DNA of 43,676 nt from a virus: positions 1 to 43,676 of IMG/VR virus record IMGVR_UViG_3300048592_000487; one strand, written 5' to 3'. The notes below the pieces were generated by a model. The model saw only the letters and a program-made list of their open reading frames with translations, searched no databases and was not told where the DNA came from. The translations under genes and the position numbers were made by a program. Below are positions 6,334-42,549 of the stretch, one piece after another (positions within the stretch are counted from its first letter, which is position 1; each line of letters begins with the position of its first letter).

Positions 6334-8814
6334 ATGGCCGAGACGACGCTCGCCCCCCGCATTTGCACGACGAACTGGCGCTCGCCCGAGATCATGGTCG
6401 AGTTGCCCAGTGGCAAGTACCTCGCGCGCACCGCGCAAAAGTTGGTGCTGCTTGATCTGGATGCCGTGCCGGAAGTGCTCGGCTCGGAGACGACCCACTT
6501 TGACGCGACCACGCTGCAAGACACGACCGGCACGCTGCTGTCTGCGCGCGGTGGCGCGGTCAATCCGCTCGACGCTTACCTGACATCGCACGGCCTGCTG
6601 ATGGCGGTGCAGGCTGGCGACAACAAGTTTTTCCTCTACAAATCGGTGGATGGTGGCGTGAGCTGGGGCAACAACGCGCCGAGCTACAACAACCTCCAGC
6701 CCGTCGATCGAATCGGCTACTACAACGGCACGCTCGCCACCGGCACGGACGAGCAAAAACACACCGCGTGGATTGGTCTGCTGCCGCACCGCGGGATTGC
6801 CGAGCGCACGACCACGCGCACACTGTACATGGCCGAGTATCGCCAGTCAGGCGACGCCAACATCAACACCGCAGGCGCGTTCAATTTCACCAACGGTGAC
6901 CAAATCCTGCTTAAGCGCAGCACCAACGGCGGCGACTCGTGGCAGATCGTGTGGGAGCACAACACTGTCAATCAGGCTGCGGGGACGGCAAATCTGCGCA
7001 TCCGCCACTTCCACAACATCTACTACCACAAGGGCCGCGACCTGCTGCTGATCGGCTACGGCGACCGGCAGTGGGATTCCGGCTACATCGTGTGGGAGCC
7101 GGACGCCGCGTGGCCTGCCAATAACTGCACGATCCCCGAGCTTTACGCCACCCCCGGATTTTCCGGCAAGGGCGGCGGCATGGCGATCTACAACGCCACC
7201 GACTTCATCGAAATCCCCGGCTCGGACTGGGTGATCCACGTCACAGACGGCAACATGGTCGGCGGCGGCACGCAGGGCATTCACCGATTCCGTTTGTCTG
7301 ACGCTAGCAACACTTTCCATAACGTGTATGCCATGCCGGGCGGCACCTCGTCGGGGCGGCTGATGAGCTACGGCACGCGCCTGCCTGACGGCACGCTCTG
7401 CGCGGTCGAGTACGGCGATGTGAACAACCCGATCAGTGCGCCGGAAACCTACCTCTACACCTCGGCTGGCGAGGGCGAGCAATGGAAGCGCGTGGCCGTC
7501 GTGAAGATGGACGACGGCATGGATGTGTCGAGTTTCGGACCGAAAAACCTGTTCGCGGATTCTCGCGGTCGCCTGATCTGGGTGGCGCGCATGGCGGGCT
7601 CGAAATCGCCGGTTCTCGGCAATTCGTGCTCGATCATCGCAGGGCGTTTCGGGCTACATGGCGTCAATGACGACGATGACATCCTGCACCCGGTCTGGTT
7701 CGTAGATTCCAACTCCGCGAACAAGGTCGATTCGCGCACGGGGCGCAACGATCAGGGGTGCTACCCGAACATGCCCTATGCGACTGTGCGCGGCTGCATG
7801 TCGGGCGGCGCGTCACTGACTCAAGCGGGCGGGCGCATCCAGTGCGGTCGCAACCACTCCGAGACTGTGGCGAACTGGATCGTCTCGACGCAGAACCCGA
7901 ACCTTTCTTTCCCCGACATCATCCACGACGGCTCGACGCAAGTCTGCGGCTGGGGCATGGACCTCTGCACGCTCGCGCCGGACGCTGCGGCGACCTACGT
8001 TATCCAGCACTCGGATAACGTCATGATGGCGAACTACAAGGACTTGACGCTGCTGCACAACGCGACGAACACGACGCGGATTTTCGGCGGCACGGTGCCC
8101 ACGCGCCCGATCAAGATGCACCGCGTGCGCATTGGGTCTCGTACTGCGCCGCGCAAGGCCGGCCGATTCCTTGTCACGCCGGGTTTGCCGTATGAGCAAT
8201 ACGACTGCGAGGTGCTTGCCCAGATCGGCGACGGCACGACGCAGGAGTACCCGATGTACTGCACCAACCCGACGCGAACCATGAAGGCGGTCAATACACT
8301 GTTCTGGGGTGGCTCGCGCTTGTACTCGGAAACCGGATGCACCTGGACGCTCCATCATTGCGAAATGATCGGGCAGTGGGGCAGTCCGATCCATTTAAAC
8401 AACGCCGGCACTTACACGCTCGACATCCGCAACAACGTTTTCGAGCGCGCGGGAGCGAGTGGGCCGAACGTCCCCGCGATCTGGAACGGCTCCGGTGCCG
8501 ACCTGGGCGACGCGATCCGCAACAACCAGACCGTGAGCAGCTACACGGCGATGATCGGCGGCACGGCAGGCACGACGCCAGTCGCACCGCCTGAGCTGCG
8601 CGCAGTGCCCCGCAGTTTTGCCGGCGCAGCGATGCTGCCGCGCATCGAGTCTGCCAGTGACGACATCCGCCGACTCAAACGCCCGTCGCTGACGGCGGCA
8701 GGGCGGTATGGTGGCGTTGAGGCGGTCGCCTCGTCTGGTGGTGGCGGTGCCTCAGGGCTGCAAGTGGGTGTGCTCGCGCTTCAGGTGGCGCCGGGCGTGG
8801 TGCTGCCGCTCTGA
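6334..8814 (+). CDS. Tail spike: sialidase-like propeller plus beta-helix
   Basis: An 826-residue probable receptor-binding or glycan-cleaving spike with two modules. Residues about 1-440 resemble a sialidase/BNR propeller. They carry clear Asp-boxes SVDGGVSW (104-111) and STNGGDSW (near 196-203) and a weaker one near 376. From about 450, FVDSNSANK...DQGCYPNMPYATVRGC looks like the entry to a right-handed beta-helix, as in phage spikes with pectate-lyase fold. The C-terminal end is Gly-rich with a hydrophobic tip (SGGGGASGLQVGVLALQV). I did not identify catalytic residues. The position between portal and capsid genes is unusual for a spike and supports insertion. Confidence 0.8.
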   Translation: MAETTLAPRICTTNWRSPEIMVELPSGKYLARTAQKLVLLDLDAVPEVLGSETTHFDATTLQDTTGTLLSARGGAVNPLDAYLTSHGLLMAVQAGDNKFFLYKSVDGGVSWGNNAPSYNNLQPVDRIGYYNGTLATGTDEQKHTAWIGLLPHRGIAERTTTRTLYMAEYRQSGDANINTAGAFNFTNGDQILLKRSTNGGDSWQIVWEHNTVNQAAGTANLRIRHFHNIYYHKGRDLLLIGYGDRQWDSGYIVWEPDAAWPANNCTIPELYATPGFSGKGGGMAIYNATDFIEIPGSDWVIHVTDGNMVGGGTQGIHRFRLSDASNTFHNVYAMPGGTSSGRLMSYGTRLPDGTLCAVEYGDVNNPISAPETYLYTSAGEGEQWKRVAVVKMDDGMDVSSFGPKNLFADSRGRLIWVARMAGSKSPVLGNSCSIIAGRFGLHGVNDDDDILHPVWFVDSNSANKVDSRTGRNDQGCYPNMPYATVRGCMSGGASLTQAGGRIQCGRNHSETVANWIVSTQNPNLSFPDIIHDGSTQVCGWGMDLCTLAPDAAATYVIQHSDNVMMANYKDLTLLHNATNTTRIFGGTVPTRPIKMHRVRIGSRTAPRKAGRFLVTPGLPYEQYDCEVLAQIGDGTTQEYPMYCTNPTRTMKAVNTLFWGGSRLYSETGCTWTLHHCEMIGQWGSPIHLNNAGTYTLDIRNNVFERAGASGPNVPAIWNGSGADLGDAIRNNQTVSSYTAMIGGTAGTTPVAPPELRAVPRSFAGAAMLPRIESASDDIRRLKRPSLTAAGRYGGVEAVASSGGGGASGLQVGVLALQVAPGVVLPL

Positions 8815-27163: not shown

Positions 27164-27210
27164 CCCTTACAAGGCGAATGTCGGCGGTTCGACCCCGTCA
27201 GCACCCACCA
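27164..27210 (+). other. attP core: 3' half of a tRNA-Val(TAC) gene
   Basis: The sequence reproduces the anticodon loop CTTACAA (TAC at 27168-27170). It continues with the 3' anticodon stem GGCGA, variable bases ATGTC and a T-arm of GGCGG, loop TTCGACC and CCGTC (27183-27199). The acceptor strand AGCACCC, A73 and encoded CCA (27208-27210) complete it. No D-arm or 5' acceptor strand lies upstream, so it is not a working tRNA gene. A tRNA 3' end 160 nt before an integrase is the usual phage attachment site. Integration would restore a host tRNA-Val. Confidence 0.88.
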
Positions 27211-27370: not shown

Positions 27371-28480
27371 ATGGCATCGAAGCGCAAGAAGGGTGCGCGG
27401 TGGGAGTTCGTGATCAAGCGGGCGGGGCTGCTCGAGCGGCCGGTCTATCTCACCTTCGACACCGAGGAAGAGGGCGATCGGTTCTGCCGCAACGTCGAAG
27501 CACTGCTCGACCAGGGCATCGTCCCGCACGACATCCGCCCAGAGTCGAAGCCGGCCACGCTCGGCAGCGTGATCCGCGCGTACATGACCGAGGCGCACCC
27601 GTCCGGCAAGGACCTGGAGGTGCTCAGCACGGTGCTCGGCGCCAAGGGCGCGACCGCGGTGCTCAAGATCGACGCGCGGTGGGTGGATGGGTGGATTGCC
27701 GAAATGAAGCATGTCGAGAAGCTCGCGCCCGCCACCATCCGCGCCAAGATCGGCGCCACCGCGCGGGCCTGCGACTGGGCAATCCGGCGCAAGCTGATCG
27801 CGCTGCCCGACCATCCGTTCCGCACGCTGCCGGACGGCTACGCGACCTACAACGCGACCGACGCGGCGCTGGCCGGCGGTGTCCGGCAGGATGTGGAGCG
27901 CGACCGGCGCCTCGAGGCGGACGAAGAGCCGCGCATTCGGGCGGCGATCCTGGCCGGCGTGCTGCCGCGCAAGCAGCGCCCGCGGGTGCTCGAGCATCCC
28001 GCCGAGCTGCTCGCCGACTTCGACCTCGCGCTGGAGACCGGCATGCGGATGCGCGAGCGCTACACGCTGAGCTGCGACCAAGTCGATCTGCGCGGCCGTC
28101 AGATCGTGCTCGACAAGACCAAAAACGGCGACAGCCGGGAAGTGCCGCTGTCGTCTGTGGCGTTGCGGGTGGTGGGCGATCAGCTCGCACGGCGCCGCGG
28201 CGAACAGTGGCTATGGCCGTGGTTCGACGGCGACTTCCGGCCCTACGCGCTCAAGATGCGGTCGAACTGGATGAGCAAGCTGTACGCCGACGTTTTTGAG
28301 GCAGCGGGCTGCCCGGATCTGCGCGAGCATGATCTGCGGCATGAGGCGACGTCGCGGTTCTTCGAGCGGACGAGCCTGCCAGCCGAGGCGATCATGAAGA
28401 TCACCGGCCACCGCACGCACAAGATGGTGATGCGCTACCTACGCCTGCGCGGCTCGGCGCTGGCGGCGCATTTGTGGTGA
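27371..28480 (+). CDS. int: Phage integrase (tyrosine recombinase)
   Basis: A 369-residue integrase. Catalytic residues are visible: Arg in LETGMRMRERYTL, Lys in DKTKNGDSREVPL, His and Arg in HDLRHEATSRF, His in GHRTHKMVMRYL and the Tyr nucleophile in the same motif. The N-terminal part (about 1-60) should bind arm sites. The core-binding domain lies at about 65-165. The gene lies 160 nt from the tRNA-Val-type attP, which it should use. Its last 42 nt overlap the excisionase gene on the opposite strand, so int and xis transcripts are antisense there. Confidence 0.95.
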   Translation: MASKRKKGARWEFVIKRAGLLERPVYLTFDTEEEGDRFCRNVEALLDQGIVPHDIRPESKPATLGSVIRAYMTEAHPSGKDLEVLSTVLGAKGATAVLKIDARWVDGWIAEMKHVEKLAPATIRAKIGATARACDWAIRRKLIALPDHPFRTLPDGYATYNATDAALAGGVRQDVERDRRLEADEEPRIRAAILAGVLPRKQRPRVLEHPAELLADFDLALETGMRMRERYTLSCDQVDLRGRQIVLDKTKNGDSREVPLSSVALRVVGDQLARRRGEQWLWPWFDGDFRPYALKMRSNWMSKLYADVFEAAGCPDLREHDLRHEATSRFFERTSLPAEAIMKITGHRTHKMVMRYLRLRGSALAAHLW

Positions 28481-34614: not shown

Positions 34615-34818
34615 GTTCGGTCCTTGTGGGTTGGTGTCACATCCGGATGGCGACTCGGCGGAATCGTCATGCGGATGGGTGCCGGTCTTTCCCGGCTGTC
34701 CGGTCGTGCCCGCCGCATTTACGTGCTGCCCAGCCAGGCACAGCAACAGGGAGGCGCTCGTCACCACGTCACGACCTGCCGGTGATATGTCCCCTCCGCC
34801 GGCCGGGGTCGTGAGTGT
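34615..34818. other. Intergenic gap within the leftward early operon
   Basis: This 204-nt gap separates the coiled-coil gene from the small membrane gene, the only sizeable gap in the operon. It holds a 19-codon ORF on the - strand (34611-34670) whose stop overlaps the downstream ATG as ATGA, a possible leader peptide. No convincing promoter or terminator is seen. The + strand has only short shadow ORFs. Confidence 0.3.
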
Positions 34819-35025
34819 TCAGGGGGTGGCGTCGGCCACGTGGGTGGCCGCGCTGGCGGCGATGGCGCGCTCGGTGGCGGCGTCGTGCGCTTCGAGCAGG
34901 CCGTAGCCGCCGAACACCAGCACCACGGCCAACACGCGCGCCCACATGGGCAGTGGGTTGCCCTCGGTTCGCGCGCGGTGCCAGCGCAGTGGGCGCGACC
35001 AATCGGGGGTCGGATTCATGTTCAT
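34819..35025 (-). CDS. Small single-pass membrane protein
   Basis: A 68-residue protein with one transmembrane segment (WARVLAVVLVFGGYGLLEA, about 28-46) and short hydrophilic ends. GGAGG lies about 8 nt before ATG 35025. It overlaps the PEP-CTERM gene stop by 4 nt, so the two are translated together, and both have membrane segments. They may form an envelope-directed pair. Confidence 0.65.
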   Translation of the reverse strand: MNMNPTPDWSRPLRWHRARTEGNPLPMWARVLAVVLVFGGYGLLEAHDAATERAIAASAATHVADATP

Positions 35026-35405
35026 GCTCTGGTCCTCCAGGCAAGGGCCGCCACGCCCGCGCCGAGGAGGGCGAGCGTGCCGGGTTCGGGCAGCGGCCGC
35101 GTCGCTGCGTGGTGTTGCGGGACGACGGGCTCGCGCTGGGTCGGCGCGGGGGAGTCTTCGGGGCTGCAGTCCTTGCCAGCGCCGCTGCACGGCGGGATCT
35201 CGACGCGCACGTCCGGCGCGGGCGTGCCCTGCGGCAGCGGGCGCACCGTCGCAGCGGCGGGGCGGTAGAGCTCTGGCGGCGTGGCGGCGACCAGGCCGGC
35301 GCCGATCGCGCATACGAGCGCGAGCATGCCGACTGACCCTTCCAGGCGGCCGATGCGCCGCTGACGGCGCATGGAGCCGGGCGGCAGGTAGCGGACGCGC
35401 TTCAT
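35022..35405 (-). CDS. PEP-CTERM sorting-domain protein
   Basis: A 127-residue protein. It has a basic N-terminus, a hydrophobic segment at 27-41 (MLALVCAIGAGLVAA) that can act as signal anchor, a Pro-rich middle with two Cys (73 and 80), and a C-terminal PEP-CTERM signal. The latter has Pro-Glu-Pro at 106-108, a hydrophobic stretch LALLGAGVAALAW and a basic end. In bacteria, exosortase enzymes recognise this signal and sort the protein to the envelope or matrix. No exosortase gene is present in the window, so a host enzyme would be needed. It is expressed with the early operon. Confidence 0.8.
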   Translation of the reverse strand: MKRVRYLPPGSMRRQRRIGRLEGSVGMLALVCAIGAGLVAATPPELYRPAAATVRPLPQGTPAPDVRVEIPPCSGAGKDCSPEDSPAPTQREPVVPQHHAATRPLPEPGTLALLGAGVAALAWRTRA

Positions 35406-35563
35406 GCGACCCTCCCGGCGAGCTTGCGAAGGGCGGCTTCGATCGGCACGCCGGCTGCGGCCATGCGGCACGCGGCTGAGTAGGTGGTGATGTGGCCGAC
35501 CTCTGCCGACCAGGCGAGCAGGTCGACGTAGTCGCGCATGAGGGCGTTGATGCGGCGGGTCAT
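35402..35563 (-). CDS. Very small early ORF
   Basis: A 53-residue ORF linking its neighbours through 4-nt ATGA overlaps at both ends (35402-35405 and 35560-35563). That overlap is the main reason to believe it. The protein is helical (NALMRDYVDLLAWSAEVGHI, then RMAAAGVPIEAALRKLAG) and soluble. No family is recognised. Confidence 0.6.
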   Translation of the reverse strand: MTRRINALMRDYVDLLAWSAEVGHITTYSAACRMAAAGVPIEAALRKLAGRVA

Positions 35564-35775
35564 GCGGTCATCTCGTCCAGGCAGTAGGTGCGGACCTCGG
35601 AAAGCACACGCTCGCCGCGCTTTTCGGTCTCGTCGGCGATGATCAGCAGCGTGGCCGCCAGCCGGCGCAGTTGCTCGGCGCCGAACTCAGCCCCGTCGCC
35701 GGGGAGGTTGTGCACACACGCCAGCGGTGCGCCGTGGCGGTCCTTGGTGTGCTTGACGATCAGCGTGCGGTTCAT
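35560..35775 (-). CDS. Small early protein
   Basis: A 71-residue protein with GAGGAG just upstream of the ATG. The N-terminal half is a beta hairpin-like stretch (RTLIVKHTKDRHGAPLACVH). A helix follows (EQLRRLAATLLIIADETEKR). This pattern is seen in short phage early proteins of unknown function. It is the second gene after the antirepressor, 10 nt downstream. Confidence 0.65.
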   Translation of the reverse strand: MNRTLIVKHTKDRHGAPLACVHNLPGDGAEFGAEQLRRLAATLLIIADETEKRGERVLSEVRTYCLDEMTA

Positions 35776-35785
35776 GGCGTACTCC

Positions 35786-36502
35786 TCAGGCGTGCATCAG
35801 CGACCCGGCCACGCTCAGCGCGGCGCGGCTGCATTCGGTGCGGCAGCGGGTGTTGCCCTTGGCGCCGCGGGCCTCGATGCGCTCGGCGGCAAGAATCTCG
35901 GCCAGGCCGACGGCGAACAGCTGTTTCAGGGGGAGTACGTCGCGGATGCTTGCGCGAGGCTTCAGGCCACGAAGCTGGCGAATCTCTTCGGCCTTGCCGC
36001 CCACGATGGGCTTGTAGATCTCGTTGGTGCAGTCGCCGTAGCCGCGTCCCTCGACACCGTGCGCTTGCAGCGTGGCGGTGAAGCGGTTGCGGGCGACCTT
36101 GCCCTGCATGCGGGTGGCCAGCCACGCCTGGTCTTCGTGCGAGGCACGGTCGGCGATCTCGGCGGCGAGGGTGACGTCGCCGCTGGCTACGCGCTCCTCG
36201 AGCTCGATCAGCGCGCGGCGGATGGCGCGGCCTTGGTCGGTGCGCTCGACCATCGCCAGCTCTTTGGCGGTGGTCAGCGTCAGCAGGTAGTCCTTGCGGG
36301 GCCGGCCGGCCTTGCCTGGGGTTTTACTGGAAATCGAGTAAAAGTCCCGGCCGTCTTCGAACTCGTACTCGCGGATCCGAGCGGCGATCCAGTCGTTGAA
36401 GCGGGTGCCGTTGTCGAGCCGCTTGTGAAGCTCGCGGGCGTCGATACCGTGGCGGTCTGCGCCGGCCTGGGTGACCGTGCGGAAGGTGAGGGTCGGGTGC
36501 AT
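35786..36502 (-). CDS. AntA/AntB-type antirepressor
   Basis: A 238-residue protein with an N-terminal AntA/AntB domain (IDARELHKRLDNGTRFNDWI, RIREYEFEDGRDFYSI, about 20-58). A DNA-binding-like central part follows (DYLLTLTTAKELAMVERTDQ). Phage antirepressors bind or displace the lysogeny repressor to trigger the lytic cycle. As first gene of the leftward operon with its own promoter, it would be the switch toward excision. This matters because the repressor here lacks a cleavage domain. Its C-terminal 90 residues carry several Cys and Arg of unknown role. Confidence 0.88.
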   Translation of the reverse strand: MHPTLTFRTVTQAGADRHGIDARELHKRLDNGTRFNDWIAARIREYEFEDGRDFYSISSKTPGKAGRPRKDYLLTLTTAKELAMVERTDQGRAIRRALIELEERVASGDVTLAAEIADRASHEDQAWLATRMQGKVARNRFTATLQAHGVEGRGYGDCTNEIYKPIVGGKAEEIRQLRGLKPRASIRDVLPLKQLFAVGLAEILAAERIEARGAKGNTRCRTECSRAALSVAGSLMHA

Positions 36503-36635: not shown

Positions 36636-37541
36636 CTATGCGGCGTCTTTCAGCAGGATCCGGTCAGCTGCAATCTGGTGGGTTGGGCAGGCCTCGACGC
36701 GCATCTCGTGCTTGTCGGCAAACTCTTCGAGAAGCGCGAACGCGCGGTGGGCCTCGCGGATCATGCGCTCGCTGTAGCCGACGTCGGTCTCGGCGGGAAC
36801 AAAGGCCAGCAGTTCGATCTCGTGCGCGCTTCCCGCGAACAGGTCGGCCTCTTCGGCGCGCTTGCGCACCAGCTCGAGGTCGATGAGCTTGGCCTTGCTA
36901 TCCTTCAAGTGGCGCGCCAATCCGCCGCCGGGAACCAGGCGCGCAAAGCCGGCACAGTAGCGGCGCCCAAGATAGTCGATGCGGGTCTCGCGGACATGCT
37001 CGCCGGCCTTCACGGCGCGGTTGAAGTGCGTGGCCCACTCCGGGCGCCGCGCCTGTACTGCATCGCGAATCAGCCGCGACCAGCGCAGGTCTTCGGATTC
37101 ATGCTCGGTCACCGCCGTCTTGCTGTCGGGTAGGATGTCGGCGAGCGAGGCCAGGAATGCAGAGTCGGCCAGCGCGCCGCGGATCACGTCGCCCCAGTGG
37201 CGTCCATGCGCCCAGCGCACTTCGCCCGGGCTGACGCCAGACAGCGGCGAGCGCCATGTCTGCAGCCACTTGCCGGCCTGCATGTGCGCCGTCAGGCTAC
37301 GCTCGATGAACTCGACCAAGCGCTGCACGTTTCCCGCCTTGCTGCCCAGAAAGCACGCCCAAGCCTCCATGCTGGCGGCTGGCTGGAGACGCCATTCGCC
37401 TTCAGTGGTGCGGGCGGCCACGAGCAGGGCGATGCGCTCGCCCGAGCCAATGATAGGCTCCCAGTACACCGGCATCCAGTGGGCGCCGAAGTCTGGCAGG
37501 AGCGGAAAGCCTTTGGAGTCGAGCGGTATGGGTGCGTTCAC
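36636..37541 (-). CDS. Partner of HipA-like kinase, lysogeny operon
   Basis: A 301-residue protein I cannot firmly assign. The N-terminal region reads MPVYWEPIIGSGERIALLVA then ARTTEGEWRLQPA. From memory this resembles uncharacterised proteins encoded beside HipA-like kinases, possibly DUF3037-related. The rest is helical with charged ends (ERMIREAHRAFALLEEFADK). It overlaps the kinase stop by 4 nt (ATGA) and is followed 20 nt later by a terminator, so it is the last gene of the repressor transcript. Substrate, inhibitor or effector of the kinase are all possible. Confidence 0.65.
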   Translation of the reverse strand: MNAPIPLDSKGFPLLPDFGAHWMPVYWEPIIGSGERIALLVAARTTEGEWRLQPAASMEAWACFLGSKAGNVQRLVEFIERSLTAHMQAGKWLQTWRSPLSGVSPGEVRWAHGRHWGDVIRGALADSAFLASLADILPDSKTAVTEHESEDLRWSRLIRDAVQARRPEWATHFNRAVKAGEHVRETRIDYLGRRYCAGFARLVPGGGLARHLKDSKAKLIDLELVRKRAEEADLFAGSAHEIELLAFVPAETDVGYSERMIREAHRAFALLEEFADKHEMRVEACPTHQIAADRILLKDAA

Positions 37542-38335
37542 GGCCTGTCGAGCTGGAGGGTGATTTGCTGATGGTCTCGTGCCCGCTTGCGCAGTAAGCC
37601 TGCTGCGTTGGCAATGCGGGACTCGATTAACCGTAGCACATCATCCGTCCAATTCGAAGCGCCGATTCGGCTTCCGAGGTCCTCGGGCGCCAGCGCGCGT
37701 AGGTCGATCAGGCGCCATTGATCCACCAACTCCTGCGCGGCCTTTTCGAGCCTGGCGGCTTCGATTCGCGGGCCAAAGTGCGCCGCGAGCCGCTCGGCCA
37801 GCTGGTTCTGTACGGTCTCGTGGGGCGTGACCGGGCGCAGCGGGTGGCGCATCGGCCCGCCCAGTGCAAAGTCGTGATCGATGGGCACGAAGGCCTCGTC
37901 GCCGTCCCACAGCAGGTTGCCGGCGTGGCGGTCGATATTGGCGATTGCTTCGTCCAGAATGCAGCATGCGCGCAGATTGGGCCATGCCATCAGCGCCTCC
38001 TGCACCGCCACGTCGTCGCCGTCCTCAATCCACTGTCGCATCGAGCGGTTGTCGACTTCTTCGAGGCCGAACAGCGGCAGGCCGTCCGCCTTGCCGAGTC
38101 GCAACTTAGGGTCGCTCACCAGCAGCGGGCGCGGCGCCCCCAGGCCGCAGGCGCGCGCGAGCAGGCTCCCCACGCATTCGGCCAGCAGCGCGGCCGGCCC
38201 CAGTTGTTTGAGGTAGACGCCGACAGACTCGCCCTCATCGGTGAGCGCCCGCGCGCGCCACACCCGATTGAGTTGTCCGGCGCGCACCATGACCGGTTCG
38301 CTGATGATCGTCGCGAGGCCGAGTCGGTTGCTCAT
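37538..38335 (-). CDS. HipA-like protein kinase, lysogeny operon
   Basis: A 265-residue kinase-fold protein, shorter than E. coli HipA (about 440). A VGVYLKQLG strand gives candidate Lys43, with Glu53 in the next helix. The catalytic loop NIDRHAGNLL has Asp135 and Asn140, and metal-binding IDHDFALGG follows (Asp153 and Asp155). This order fits the HipA/PI3-4-kinase-like fold. The gene overlaps the repressor stop by 4 nt, so it should be expressed in lysogens. A role in growth arrest, superinfection exclusion or phage defence is inferred from that placement, not shown. Confidence 0.75.
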   Translation of the reverse strand: MSNRLGLATIISEPVMVRAGQLNRVWRARALTDEGESVGVYLKQLGPAALLAECVGSLLARACGLGAPRPLLVSDPKLRLGKADGLPLFGLEEVDNRSMRQWIEDGDDVAVQEALMAWPNLRACCILDEAIANIDRHAGNLLWDGDEAFVPIDHDFALGGPMRHPLRPVTPHETVQNQLAERLAAHFGPRIEAARLEKAAQELVDQWRLIDLRALAPEDLGSRIGASNWTDDVLRLIESRIANAAGLLRKRARDHQQITLQLDRP

Positions 38336-39193: not shown

Positions 39194-39255
39194 CGATTTC
39201 ACGATAAGCGCGGGCACTGATAACCGCGCACAACTGCCGATAGGAGGTTGCATCC

Positions 39256-39651
39256 ATGGTTATCGAACAAGATCACGTCCAACGGACATTGGACATTGAC
39301 CCGGGCCTGGCAGAGCGCTACAGCTCGCTCAAGGAGTGTGTGGCGGCCGGGGTGTATCGGCACGGCCTCAAGCGTGCGGCGAGCAAGCTGTTCGTCTATC
39401 CGGGCAACCTGAGCGTGATGCTGTCTGGCGATGGCCAGCGGCATTTCGATCTCGATCTGCTGGAGCAGTACATCGAGGCCTTCGACGATGTCACGCCCAT
39501 CCTCTACCTGGTGGCGAAGTACTGCGGCGACCGCATGGCCGACCAGTCCGACGCACTGCAGCGGGTGCAGTCGCTGCTCGAGCAGTTGCCCGGCCTGCTG
39601 GATGCGGCGGGCGTGAAGGGGCAGGGCAAGGGCAAGCGGGGAGGGCGCTGA
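39256..39651 (+). CDS. CII-like regulatory protein (Phage_CP76)
   Basis: A 131-residue protein resembling the CP76/P2-type CII family. The conserved part is LKECVAAGVYRHGLKRAASK then LFVYPGNLSVMLSGDGQRHF and DLDLLEQYIE (about 25-75). The C-terminus is basic and Gly/Lys-rich. AGGAGG lies 8 nt before the ATG. In related phages the protein links early control to replication or lysogeny choice. It precedes the Zn-ribbon and primase genes by 2 nt. Confidence 0.82.
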   Translation: MVIEQDHVQRTLDIDPGLAERYSSLKECVAAGVYRHGLKRAASKLFVYPGNLSVMLSGDGQRHFDLDLLEQYIEAFDDVTPILYLVAKYCGDRMADQSDALQRVQSLLEQLPGLLDAAGVKGQGKGKRGGR

Positions 39652-39653
39652 CC

Positions 39654-39848
39654 ATGGCCGACTTCGCCGACCTGGGCGCCGATCGTGAGGAGAAAGACCG
39701 GGCGCTTGCACTGAAGGTGCGGGCGCCTGAAGGCCCCTCGGCGACAGGCGTGTGCCTGTGCTGCGGCGAGCCGCTGGCCGATGGGCTGCGGTGGTGCGAC
39801 GCGGAGTGCCGCGATACGTGGCAGGCCGAGCAGAAGGTGGGGCGCTGA
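39654..39848 (+). CDS. Small Zn-ribbon protein (DUF2116-like)
   Basis: A 64-residue protein with CLCCGEPLADGLRWCDAECR (about 33-52), a C-x2-C...C-x3-C zinc finger of the DUF2116 type. The rest is charged. It is between the CII-like and primase-helicase genes. The start is 2 nt after one, and the stop is 4 nt before the next. Confidence 0.7.
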   Translation: MADFADLGADREEKDRALALKVRAPEGPSATGVCLCCGEPLADGLRWCDAECRDTWQAEQKVGR

Positions 39849-39852
39849 AGTG

Positions 39853-42333
39853 ATGGCCGCACCCGAGATCGACATCGACCGCATCCCCGCCGCGCTGCGT
39901 GAGCGCGCGCAGTGGCTGGTGTGGCGATTCGTGAAGAAGGCAGGCGCGGCAAAGCCCAGCAAGATGCCGTATTACGCCAACGGCCATCTGCGTGGATGGC
40001 CGAATGGGCAGCCGCCAAAGGGGGCGGACGGTAAAAGGAAGCCGACGCCCGATCAGCCGCAGGTGGACCAGGGTGACCCCCGCGATCGTGCTGAGCTGGT
40101 GAGCTTCGATGCGGCGCTTGCCGCATTGCACGATGACCGATGGGCCGGGCTCGGCTTCGCCTTCCTGCCCGGCGACGGCCTGATCGGCATCGACCTCGAC
40201 AACGTCATCGACGCCGAGACCGGCGAGGTGCAGGAGCGTGCGGCCGGAATCATCGCGGCGTGCGACAGCTTCACCGAGCTGTCGCCCTCGGGCCGTGGCG
40301 TGCATATCTACTGCCTCGGCGAGACCAAGAGCCACAAGAGCAACGAGATCGGCGTGGAGATGTTCTGCGGCCGGCAGTTTTTCACGGTGACCGGACGCCA
40401 GTTTCCGGGGTCGCCGGATGTGGTTACGGCGATTCGTCCCGCGGTAGTCGAGCGCCTGCACCAGGTGATTGACGAGGCCCGCGGAAAGCATCGCGCAACC
40501 GGGTCGAGCTCGCCCGCGCGGCAGCCAGTCGAAGGTCAGGAGGAGGGGGGGCTAGAGGAACGTTCGTTCTTCGCCCGGGTGAATTCCAAGGCGCTGCACA
40601 ACCTGGCCGCATGGGTTCCGGCGCTGCTGCCGAAAGCGCAGCCGTACAAGGACGGGTTCCGCATCAGCTCTGCCGACCTTGGGCGGGACCTTCAGGAAGA
40701 CCTGTCGATGGTGCCCGAGGGCATCTTCGACTTCGGGACCGAGTGCGGCAAAACGGCGATCGATCTTGTTCTTGAGTGGGGCGCCCCGTCGAAGCCGCTG
40801 GAGGCTGCCGAGTGGCTTTGCGCCCGCCTGGGTATCGACCCCGCAAGCATCGGCGGAAAGCGCAAGCGCGCCCGCAAAGCGGCTCCCACACCCTCGAGCA
40901 GGGGCGCAGCCGAGCCGAGCATGCAAGCACCGTCCGCCTCGATGGATGAGCCGCCCGAGTGGGTCATGGACGGCCCGCCCGTCGATGACCTGATGCACTT
41001 CGTGCATGACTCGGCCGACTTCAATTCCCAGTTCCGCCGCAACGACAAGGGCAACATCCAGCCGAGCCTGTACAACACGTTGCACGTGCTGGAGGGAGAT
41101 CCGCTGTGGCGCGGGGTGCTGGGGTTCAACCAGTTCAGCTACCGGATCGTCAAGCGCCGCATGCCGCCCGTGCTGCCGGCGACCGAGGGCGAGTGGGCGG
41201 ACATCGATGACGTGCGCCTGCAGGTGTATCTGACGAAGACGTACAGCTTCGAGCCCAAGAAGACCACGGTGATGGATGCCGTGATGCAGGTGGCGCACGC
41301 CGCGCCTTTCCACCCGGTGCGCGAGTATCTCGACGCGCTGGTGTGGGACGGAACGCCGCGCCTGGTCACGCTGCTGTCCGACTGCTGGGGCGCGCTTTCC
41401 ACCGCCGGCTCGGCTGCGCTCCGGCGCGAGGATCCGGGCGCGCATCGGCGCTTGGGCAAGTACCTCGAGCTGGCGGGCGTGAAGTGGCTGGTGGGCGCCG
41501 TGGCGCGCATCTACAAACCCGGCTGCAAGCTCGACACCATGCTCGTGCTCGAGGGCGGCCAGGGCGACTTCAAGTCCACGTCGATCCGCGCGCTGTTCGG
41601 CGACGAGTGGTTCAGCGACAGCAAACTGACGATCGGCGACAAGGACGCACTGGCCCAGATGCAGGGCAAGTGGGCCTACGAGATGGCCGAGATGGACGCG
41701 CACCGCAAGGCGGATGACACCGCGTTCAAGCAGTTCCTGACCACGCAGGTCGACCGGGTGCGCTGGCATTACGGCAAGCGCGCCGAGGATGTGCCGCGTC
41801 AGTGCATCTTCGTGGGGACGACCAACATGGAGCAGTACGGCAAGGACGAGACCGGCATGCGCCGCGTGTGGCCCTTCGAGGTCGGTTTCGTGGATCTGGA
41901 CAGGATCCGCAGCCAGCGCGACCAGCTGTGGGCGGAGGCGGTGTCGCTGTTCCGCCAGGGCGTGACGTGGTGGGTGGATAAGCGCGTGTTCGTGCTGGAG
42001 CCCGACGAGGAGCCGCTGATCGACCGGCCGTGGAGCGAGTTCGAGCTGTTCCAGGAGCAGGGCGACCACAGGCAGAACGTCGATGCCTGGGAGGAGCCGA
42101 TCCTGAAGTTCCTCGCCGACAACAACAAGCTGCCGTACTACACGACGGCCCAGATCATGGGCGGGGCGCTGCTGTTGGATAAGGCGCGATGGACGCCGCT
42201 GGAGCAGAAACGGGTGGCGGCCATCCTGCGCCGGCTTGGGTTCAAGACGAAGAAGGTCGGGCCGAAGAACGCGCGGGTGAATGGCTGGGTGCGCGAAGAC
42301 GACCAGGGAGAGGCCGCCGATGTGCCGATTTGA
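39853..42333 (+). CDS. Primase-polymerase and VapE-type helicase
   Basis: An 826-residue replication protein. The N-terminal primase-polymerase part shows a D-x-D motif in GLIGIDLDNVID (about 109-120) and the SPSGRGVHIYC motif (about 146-156). The C-terminal half is a VapE-type SF3-like ATPase. It has YLDALVWDGTPRL (about 493-505), P-loop EGGQGDFKST (about 566-575), acidic EMAEMDAH (near 611) and a later GMRRVWPFEV block. It is probably the initiator helicase for phage replication. The GGACACC array begins 13 nt after its stop, supporting an origin there. Confidence 0.9.
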   Translation: MAAPEIDIDRIPAALRERAQWLVWRFVKKAGAAKPSKMPYYANGHLRGWPNGQPPKGADGKRKPTPDQPQVDQGDPRDRAELVSFDAALAALHDDRWAGLGFAFLPGDGLIGIDLDNVIDAETGEVQERAAGIIAACDSFTELSPSGRGVHIYCLGETKSHKSNEIGVEMFCGRQFFTVTGRQFPGSPDVVTAIRPAVVERLHQVIDEARGKHRATGSSSPARQPVEGQEEGGLEERSFFARVNSKALHNLAAWVPALLPKAQPYKDGFRISSADLGRDLQEDLSMVPEGIFDFGTECGKTAIDLVLEWGAPSKPLEAAEWLCARLGIDPASIGGKRKRARKAAPTPSSRGAAEPSMQAPSASMDEPPEWVMDGPPVDDLMHFVHDSADFNSQFRRNDKGNIQPSLYNTLHVLEGDPLWRGVLGFNQFSYRIVKRRMPPVLPATEGEWADIDDVRLQVYLTKTYSFEPKKTTVMDAVMQVAHAAPFHPVREYLDALVWDGTPRLVTLLSDCWGALSTAGSAALRREDPGAHRRLGKYLELAGVKWLVGAVARIYKPGCKLDTMLVLEGGQGDFKSTSIRALFGDEWFSDSKLTIGDKDALAQMQGKWAYEMAEMDAHRKADDTAFKQFLTTQVDRVRWHYGKRAEDVPRQCIFVGTTNMEQYGKDETGMRRVWPFEVGFVDLDRIRSQRDQLWAEAVSLFRQGVTWWVDKRVFVLEPDEEPLIDRPWSEFELFQEQGDHRQNVDAWEEPILKFLADNNKLPYYTTAQIMGGALLLDKARWTPLEQKRVAAILRRLGFKTKKVGPKNARVNGWVREDDQGEAADVPI

Positions 42334-42345
42334 GCTCGCCGCGAA

Positions 42346-42389
42346 ATTCCAGTGGACACCGCAAACCCGCGCCGTTGCTGGTGGTGTCC
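42346..42389 (+). repeat. Left arm of perfect 44-bp inverted repeat
   Basis: Bases 42346-42389 are the exact reverse complement of 42550-42593. Each arm begins and ends with GGACACC-type units, and 160 bp separate the arms. The pair could form a large cruciform or stem-loop. Confidence 0.9.
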
Positions 42390-42549
42390 ACTGGACTGTT
42401 TCTAGTGGACACCTTGCCGGACACCGCAAAGCCAGTGCCGGCGCGGGGTTTGCCATTGGTGTCCGGGTGTCCACCAGAAAACGCAGGCTCTCTCACGCGG
42501 GCGTGCGCGCACATGCGCAACTTTTTACACACGTTTCTAGTGGACACCC

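Follow-up and report, generated by a model that had tools for sequence, protein, structure and literature searches.

Why would a phage furnish one of its own proteins with the sorting tag of its bacterial host? The question is raised by a 127-residue minus-strand product of the window, which here means the whole 43,676-nucleotide stretch of DNA analysed (IMG/VR virus record IMGVR_UViG_3300048592_000487). A preliminary description of this DNA named the product a phage-encoded PEP-CTERM protein and suggested that it draws on the host matrix-sorting machinery during early infection. Comparative genomics, and mutants of other bacteria, speak for sorting by exosortases (PMC1569441; PMC12188702; PMC11980579). 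The exosortase/PEP-CTERM system has so far been described as a cellular one, serving floc formation and surface proteins associated with exopolysaccharide. Full-text searches of open-licence papers turned up no account of a PEP-CTERM protein encoded by a phage.

The PEP-CTERM gene and its product

The gene is embedded in a run of small overlapping genes, with an antirepressor as upstream neighbour:

35786 to 36502, minus strand: antirepressor of the AntA/AntB type (Ant; PF08346, E = 2.7e-24)
34687 to 35777, minus strand: conserved 1.1-kb module of four overlapping small genes (blastn)
35560 to 35775, minus strand: 71-aa gene, upstream, with an ATGA overlap
35402 to 35563, minus strand: 53-aa gene, upstream, with an ATGA overlap to the PEP gene
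35022 to 35405, minus strand: coding sequence of the phage early PEP-CTERM protein, 127 aa (ORF call, family alignment A5)
34819 to 35025, minus strand: gene for a 68-aa single-TM protein, downstream, with an ATGA overlap to the PEP gene

The start codon of the PEP gene lies inside the stop of the 53-aa gene (overlap 35402-35405), and the start of the 68-aa gene in turn overlaps the PEP stop (overlap 35022-35025). These ATGA overlaps on both sides, together with a good ribosome-binding sequence (GGGAGG) 5' of the ATG, make it a member of a coupled minus-strand operon. Genes for an HNH nuclease and a cytosine methylase lie further downstream. The module has sharp edges and is ~96% identical to two other phages by blastn; because the flanking DNA in those phages is non-homologous on both sides, the block evidently travels between phages. 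In L001 and L002 the 68-aa gene is conserved alongside the PEP gene; a further match to the 68-aa gene (L004) was dropped, being antisense to tail genes. An origin of the PEP gene in flanking host DNA is ruled out by the overlapping operon and by conservation in other phages, and a spurious or chance ORF by the homologues and the selection pattern described below.

Four features can be placed along the product:

35283 to 35333, minus strand: N-terminal hydrophobic segment VGMLALVCAIGAGLVAA, residues 25-41, a candidate signal peptide or signal anchor (hydropathy; model helix 11-41)
35262 to 35279, minus strand: conserved PPELYR motif, directly after the first hydrophobic segment (alignment A5)
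35166 to 35189, minus strand: conserved CSGAGKDC motif, residues 73-80, a candidate disulphide loop (alignment A5)
35025 to 35093, minus strand: PEP-CTERM sorting signal LPEPGTLALLGAGVAALAWRTRA, residues 105-127 (PF07589; PEP in 13 of 13 aligned sequences; model helix 108-126)

The C-terminal tail, PLPEPGTLALLGAGVAALAWRTRA, has its signal at the extreme C-terminus, with PEP at residues 106-108, a helix at 108-126 and RTRA at the end. Membership of the PEP-CTERM proteins is defined by a C-terminal 24-residue domain above a curated cut-off, and the product scores above it in both Pfam PF07589 (27.5 bits, E = 3e-6, gathering 20.7) and NCBIfam TIGR02595 (17.3 bits, cut-off 16). The PEP-CTERM identification in the preliminary description is upheld by these scores and by homologues that carry the signal, as are its Pro-Glu-Pro and hydrophobic stretch; the basic end that it described proves weak, with two Arg only.

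The N-terminal hydrophobic segment that had also been described is present in the hydropathy profile and in the model. It is followed by VAA-TPP and may be an uncleaved anchor. An AlphaFold model places helices at residues 11-41 and 108-126 with a disordered chain between them; confidence is low elsewhere, and the model holds no folded domain. Only ~66 aa separate the two hydrophobic segments, and the chain is Pro- and Ala-rich, with two invariant Cys and no Ser/Thr/Asn enrichment. The sequence has no lipobox at C32.

Homologues, neighbourhoods and selection

By sequence comparison the PEP gene is a member of a conserved phage family, not a one-off. Whole-protein matches to P0001 and A4 in the wider order were rejected, as host PEP tails dominated them; removal of the tail from the query exposed the real homologues. 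Tail-blind searches across Rhodocyclaceae genomes and 2.9 million viral contigs yield homologues of ~40-70% identity in about ten clusters, from IMG/VR and Rhodocyclaceae prophages. Close relatives, at 97-98% identity, lie within the 1.1-kb module in two other viral contigs. With residues 1-104 as the query, homologues of 39-44% identity appear in three Rhodocyclaceae prophages, with PF07589 scores of 26.2, 22.9 and 22.1 bits, all above the cut-off, and profile searches of viral contigs add L219-L222, L224, L225 and L227.

All homologues returned by the tail-blind searches keep the PEP tail, and a last scan of the viral collection, with a profile blind to the tail, gave contigs of the same set and no PEP-less family member. 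The PEP and hydrophobic tail is kept in 13 of 13 aligned sequences, as are PPEL-YR (P43, E45, Y47 and R48 invariant in alignment A5) and C-x4-KDC (C73, K78, D79 and C80 likewise). PF07589 matches 10 of the 13 family members at E <= 1e-3; L220 falls under the Pfam cut-off, at 17.6 bits. The signal had been thought worth seeking in other phages, and these family members carry it. Isolated phage records hold no match to P0001 or L208, and a bare-tail query likewise returned nothing, a weak null because of the BLAST low-complexity filter. Sequence searches of PHROGs, PADLOC and PDB gave nothing useful for the family.

Viral contigs were also surveyed at the DNA level, with a degenerate pattern that encodes PEP[SGTA]T[LF]A[LF][LF]G, and 45 stretches match. 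In at least 41 of the 45 the motif is no more than 34 residues from a C-terminus, and the proteins concerned belong to several unrelated families; L175, L182 and L204 are false positives, with the motif well away from the end of a 259-aa frame. One might suspect, from the short model and the hydrophobic composition, that a spurious or hydrophobic C-terminus resembles PEP-CTERM by chance, but this is scarcely credible: the cut-offs are passed, the tail is constant across the alignment, nearly all viral matches of the pattern sit near C-termini, and PF07589 has zero matches in 14 control genomes. That the homologues from tail-blind searches all end in PEP-CTERM too argues directly against chance.

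PEP-CTERM proteins of several families unrelated to that of the window, mostly of ~200-300 aa, are encoded on about 40 viral contigs (including L167, L186, L187, L191, L193, L194, L196, L197, L199, L200, L206 and L207), at times close to terminase and portal genes. Terminase and portal genes share the contig with the PEP-CTERM gene in L186, L187 and L164. The tested viral records with other PEP-CTERM families contain no exosortase, and two of these families have no match in isolated phage records. L163, a related Rhodocyclaceae prophage in G687, has another PEP-CTERM gene at 6985-7747 (minus strand), which is unrelated to the window family and matches Lcl_C weakly; it sits between terminase and portal, and a frameshift interrupts the reading frame ahead of the PEP tail.

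The family occurs in three phage types: the integrase siphophage of the window, Mu-like phages and ERF/YqaJ phages. The early genes of the Mu-like members are MuA, Gam, HU, GemA and Mor: Mu Gam adjoins the homologue in L208, L219 and L222, HU in L220, and GemA and Mor in L210, and in L223 (the viral record of L209) the homologue lies downstream of MuA. YqaJ is near the homologue in L224 and ERF in L225. All loci with identifiable neighbours are early, non-structural regions, and the early location originally proposed for the gene gains the support of synteny in three phage types. The same neighbourhoods bear on a possible role in lysis, in which a spanin- or holin-like protein would combine two membrane segments with a Pro-rich periplasmic part. 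The product is small, Pro-rich and membrane-spanning, and a small TM gene comes next after it in the window; a lysis protein is very unlikely all the same, since the neighbours (Ant, Gam, GemA, Mor, ERF and YqaJ) are early genes with no adjoining endolysin, a lipobox is absent and lysis has no need of a PEP motif.

Between the window and L224, the tail shows a pS of 0.82 and a pN of 0.21. Pooled over non-independent pairs, the Cys motif has a pN/pS of 0.15 and PPELYR one of 0.20; the linkers reach 0.82 and 1.14, and the tail stands at 0.58, a rough value because Mu-like tails look partly exchanged between phages. The linkers evolve near-neutrally and the motifs are under purifying selection. 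This pattern makes it highly improbable that the gene is passive cargo, a host PEP-CTERM gene lately acquired and roleless for the phage. Such cargo would suit hosts rich in PEP-CTERM proteins, and one prophage does carry a PEP-CTERM gene, unrelated and broken, but the window family occupies three unrelated phage types, has overlapping start and stop codons and showed no cellular homologue beyond the tail in the searches made.

The phage and its host group

The window phage is a temperate siphophage, with terminase, portal, head protease, tape measure, tail and integrase genes all on the plus strand. Two features concern its integration:

27167 to 27210, plus strand: attP core, the 3' 44 nt of tRNA-Val(TAC), an exact match inside host tRNA-Val genes
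27371 to 28480, plus strand: tyrosine integrase (phrog_1, E = 1.6e-30)

The attP core is located just before the integrase gene, and ARAGORN finds no whole tRNA in the window. At least 120 genome stretches contain the 44-mer without a mismatch; among the matches listed, nearly all the genomes are Betaproteobacteria, e.g. Thauera, Azoarcus, Zoogloea, Dechloromonas and Nitrosospira. The tRNA-Val attB assumed in the preliminary description stands in outline, with the 3' half of a tRNA-Val(TAC) of betaproteobacterial type in attP. The 1117-aa tail protein also points to the host group: its identity is 64% to a Rhodocyclaceae prophage, versus 41% to the best isolated phage.

The earlier statement that the phage encodes no exosortase holds for the whole record, and none was found in 23 other viral records, including two with close relatives of the PEP gene. 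Scored by TIGR02602 above its cut-off, exosortase is present in 16 of 20 genomes with the exact attB 44-mer (among the matches listed), in 9 of 12 with related prophages and in all three lysogens carrying a PEP family member, each of which has 7-9 other PEP-CTERM matches. The host group is rich in exosortases, as the proposed use of host machinery would lead one to expect; the basal rate in Rhodocyclaceae is 127/230, so the 3/3 and 16/20 counts are agreement rather than proof. An exosortase-bearing host for this very phage is likely, not proven, the host being placed at the level of the group and not of the species.

Several other minus-strand genes of the window stand out. The gene at 37538-38335, beside the repressor, encodes a kinase-like protein (PF00454, 27.6 bits, just above the cut-off) with weak matches to HipA_2 and PADLOC PDC-M66A. 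A 301-aa protein of phrog_21150 (E = 2e-53), encoded at 36636-37541, is without a close relative in viral contigs. Two large early ORFs, at 40552-42474 (640 aa) and 39199-40491 (430 aa), have no significant PHROGs or Pfam match.

Proposed use of host sorting, and known systems

The window gene encodes a conserved, selected phage protein of early regions, with a bona fide exosortase signal, and the corresponding enzyme is common in the host group. That a small early gene recurs in several unrelated temperate phages with a product ending in a host sorting tag suggests that these phages probably use or jam the sorting enzyme. We regard it as an even call whether this conserved early protein, with its genuine signal, is made for handling by the host PEP-CTERM/exosortase system. 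A broader proposal, towards which we lean slightly, is that proteins addressed to exosortase have repeatedly arisen in, or been captured by, temperate phages of Betaproteobacteria that bear the enzyme, and that the window family is a dedicated early effector, spread by mosaic exchange among unrelated phage types, that uses or jams PEP-CTERM sorting and in this way remodels the host cell's surface or matrix during infection.

The proposed course begins with translation from the coupled operon, presumably early in infection. The N-terminal hydrophobic segment would direct the protein through or into the inner membrane, and the PEP-CTERM helix would keep the C-terminus there, where host exosortase may recognise PEP; membrane insertion, recognition and cleavage are predicted steps. 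The short Pro-rich chain with PPELYR and C-x4-KDC could then reach the cell envelope or the exopolysaccharide. More speculatively, the protein would alter the cell surface during infection or lysogeny; superinfection exclusion or a change in the matrix would be the likeliest form of this effect. Against handling by exosortase weigh the short basic end, the very short mature part without a folded domain, the sub-threshold score of L220, and the invariant Cys and ordinary Ser/Thr/Asn content, unlike typical substrates, in which very low Cys and raised Ser/Thr/Asn are a tendency and not a defining cut-off (PMC1569441).

The main rival is an exosortase decoy or inhibitor, a minimal, abundant and poorly cleaved mimic that would occupy the enzyme early and block sorting of host PEP-CTERM matrix proteins. 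A chain of 48-68 aa between membrane segments across the family, the absent folded domain, the weak basic end and the early position beside host-takeover genes are consistent with it, but PPELYR and C-x4-KDC are the most conserved parts and needless for a pure decoy. The strong constraint on these two motifs favours an active envelope peptide and leaves the decoy unlikely. It is also rather improbable that the product is a plain two-helix inner-membrane protein, acting in the periplasm without exosortase and using its PEP-like tail as a mere anchor. Two hydrophobic helices, a disordered linker, the weak basic end and a possibly uncleaved N-terminal segment would fit; the PEP tripeptide, however, is invariant in 13 of 13 aligned sequences while linkers diverge, all family members found come from a group in which exosortases are common, and PF07589 is without a match in the control genomes.

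For a product addressed to exosortase, a signal under selection in a phage family would give a first handle on phage access to the surface and matrix of these bacteria, the Rhodocyclaceae, which include floc formers of activated sludge, within a host group of water and soil bacteria. The family also offers a naturally occurring, compact substrate or inhibitor of an enzyme that is poorly understood, and phage hijack of exosortase becomes a directly testable question.

Phage superinfection-exclusion and surface-modifying membrane proteins are small early or lysogenic envelope proteins. The PEP family resembles them in being small, membrane-targeted and encoded by temperate phages outside the structural set; it differs in lacking a PHROGs sequence match, and we know of no such phage protein with a host exosortase signal. 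PepA, the floc-forming PEP-CTERM protein of Zoogloea/Aquincola (NF033554; PMC9850573), shares the tail type and an overlapping host group, whereas the match to it is confined to the tail (14.7 bits versus a cut-off of 80), with no homology elsewhere in the protein. Compared with the EpsH/XrtA-sorted PEP-CTERM proteins (PF07589, TIGR02595, TIGR02602; Haft 2006, PMC1569441), the phage protein comes from an early-operon phage gene whose own genome lacks exosortase, and it has a very short Pro-rich chain, two invariant Cys and a weak basic end. It shares with them the PEP motif, a hydrophobic helix of ~15 residues, basic C-terminal residue(s), an N-terminal hydrophobic segment that may serve export and a probable host with exosortase. 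What is new here is a phage variant of a known protein-sorting theme.
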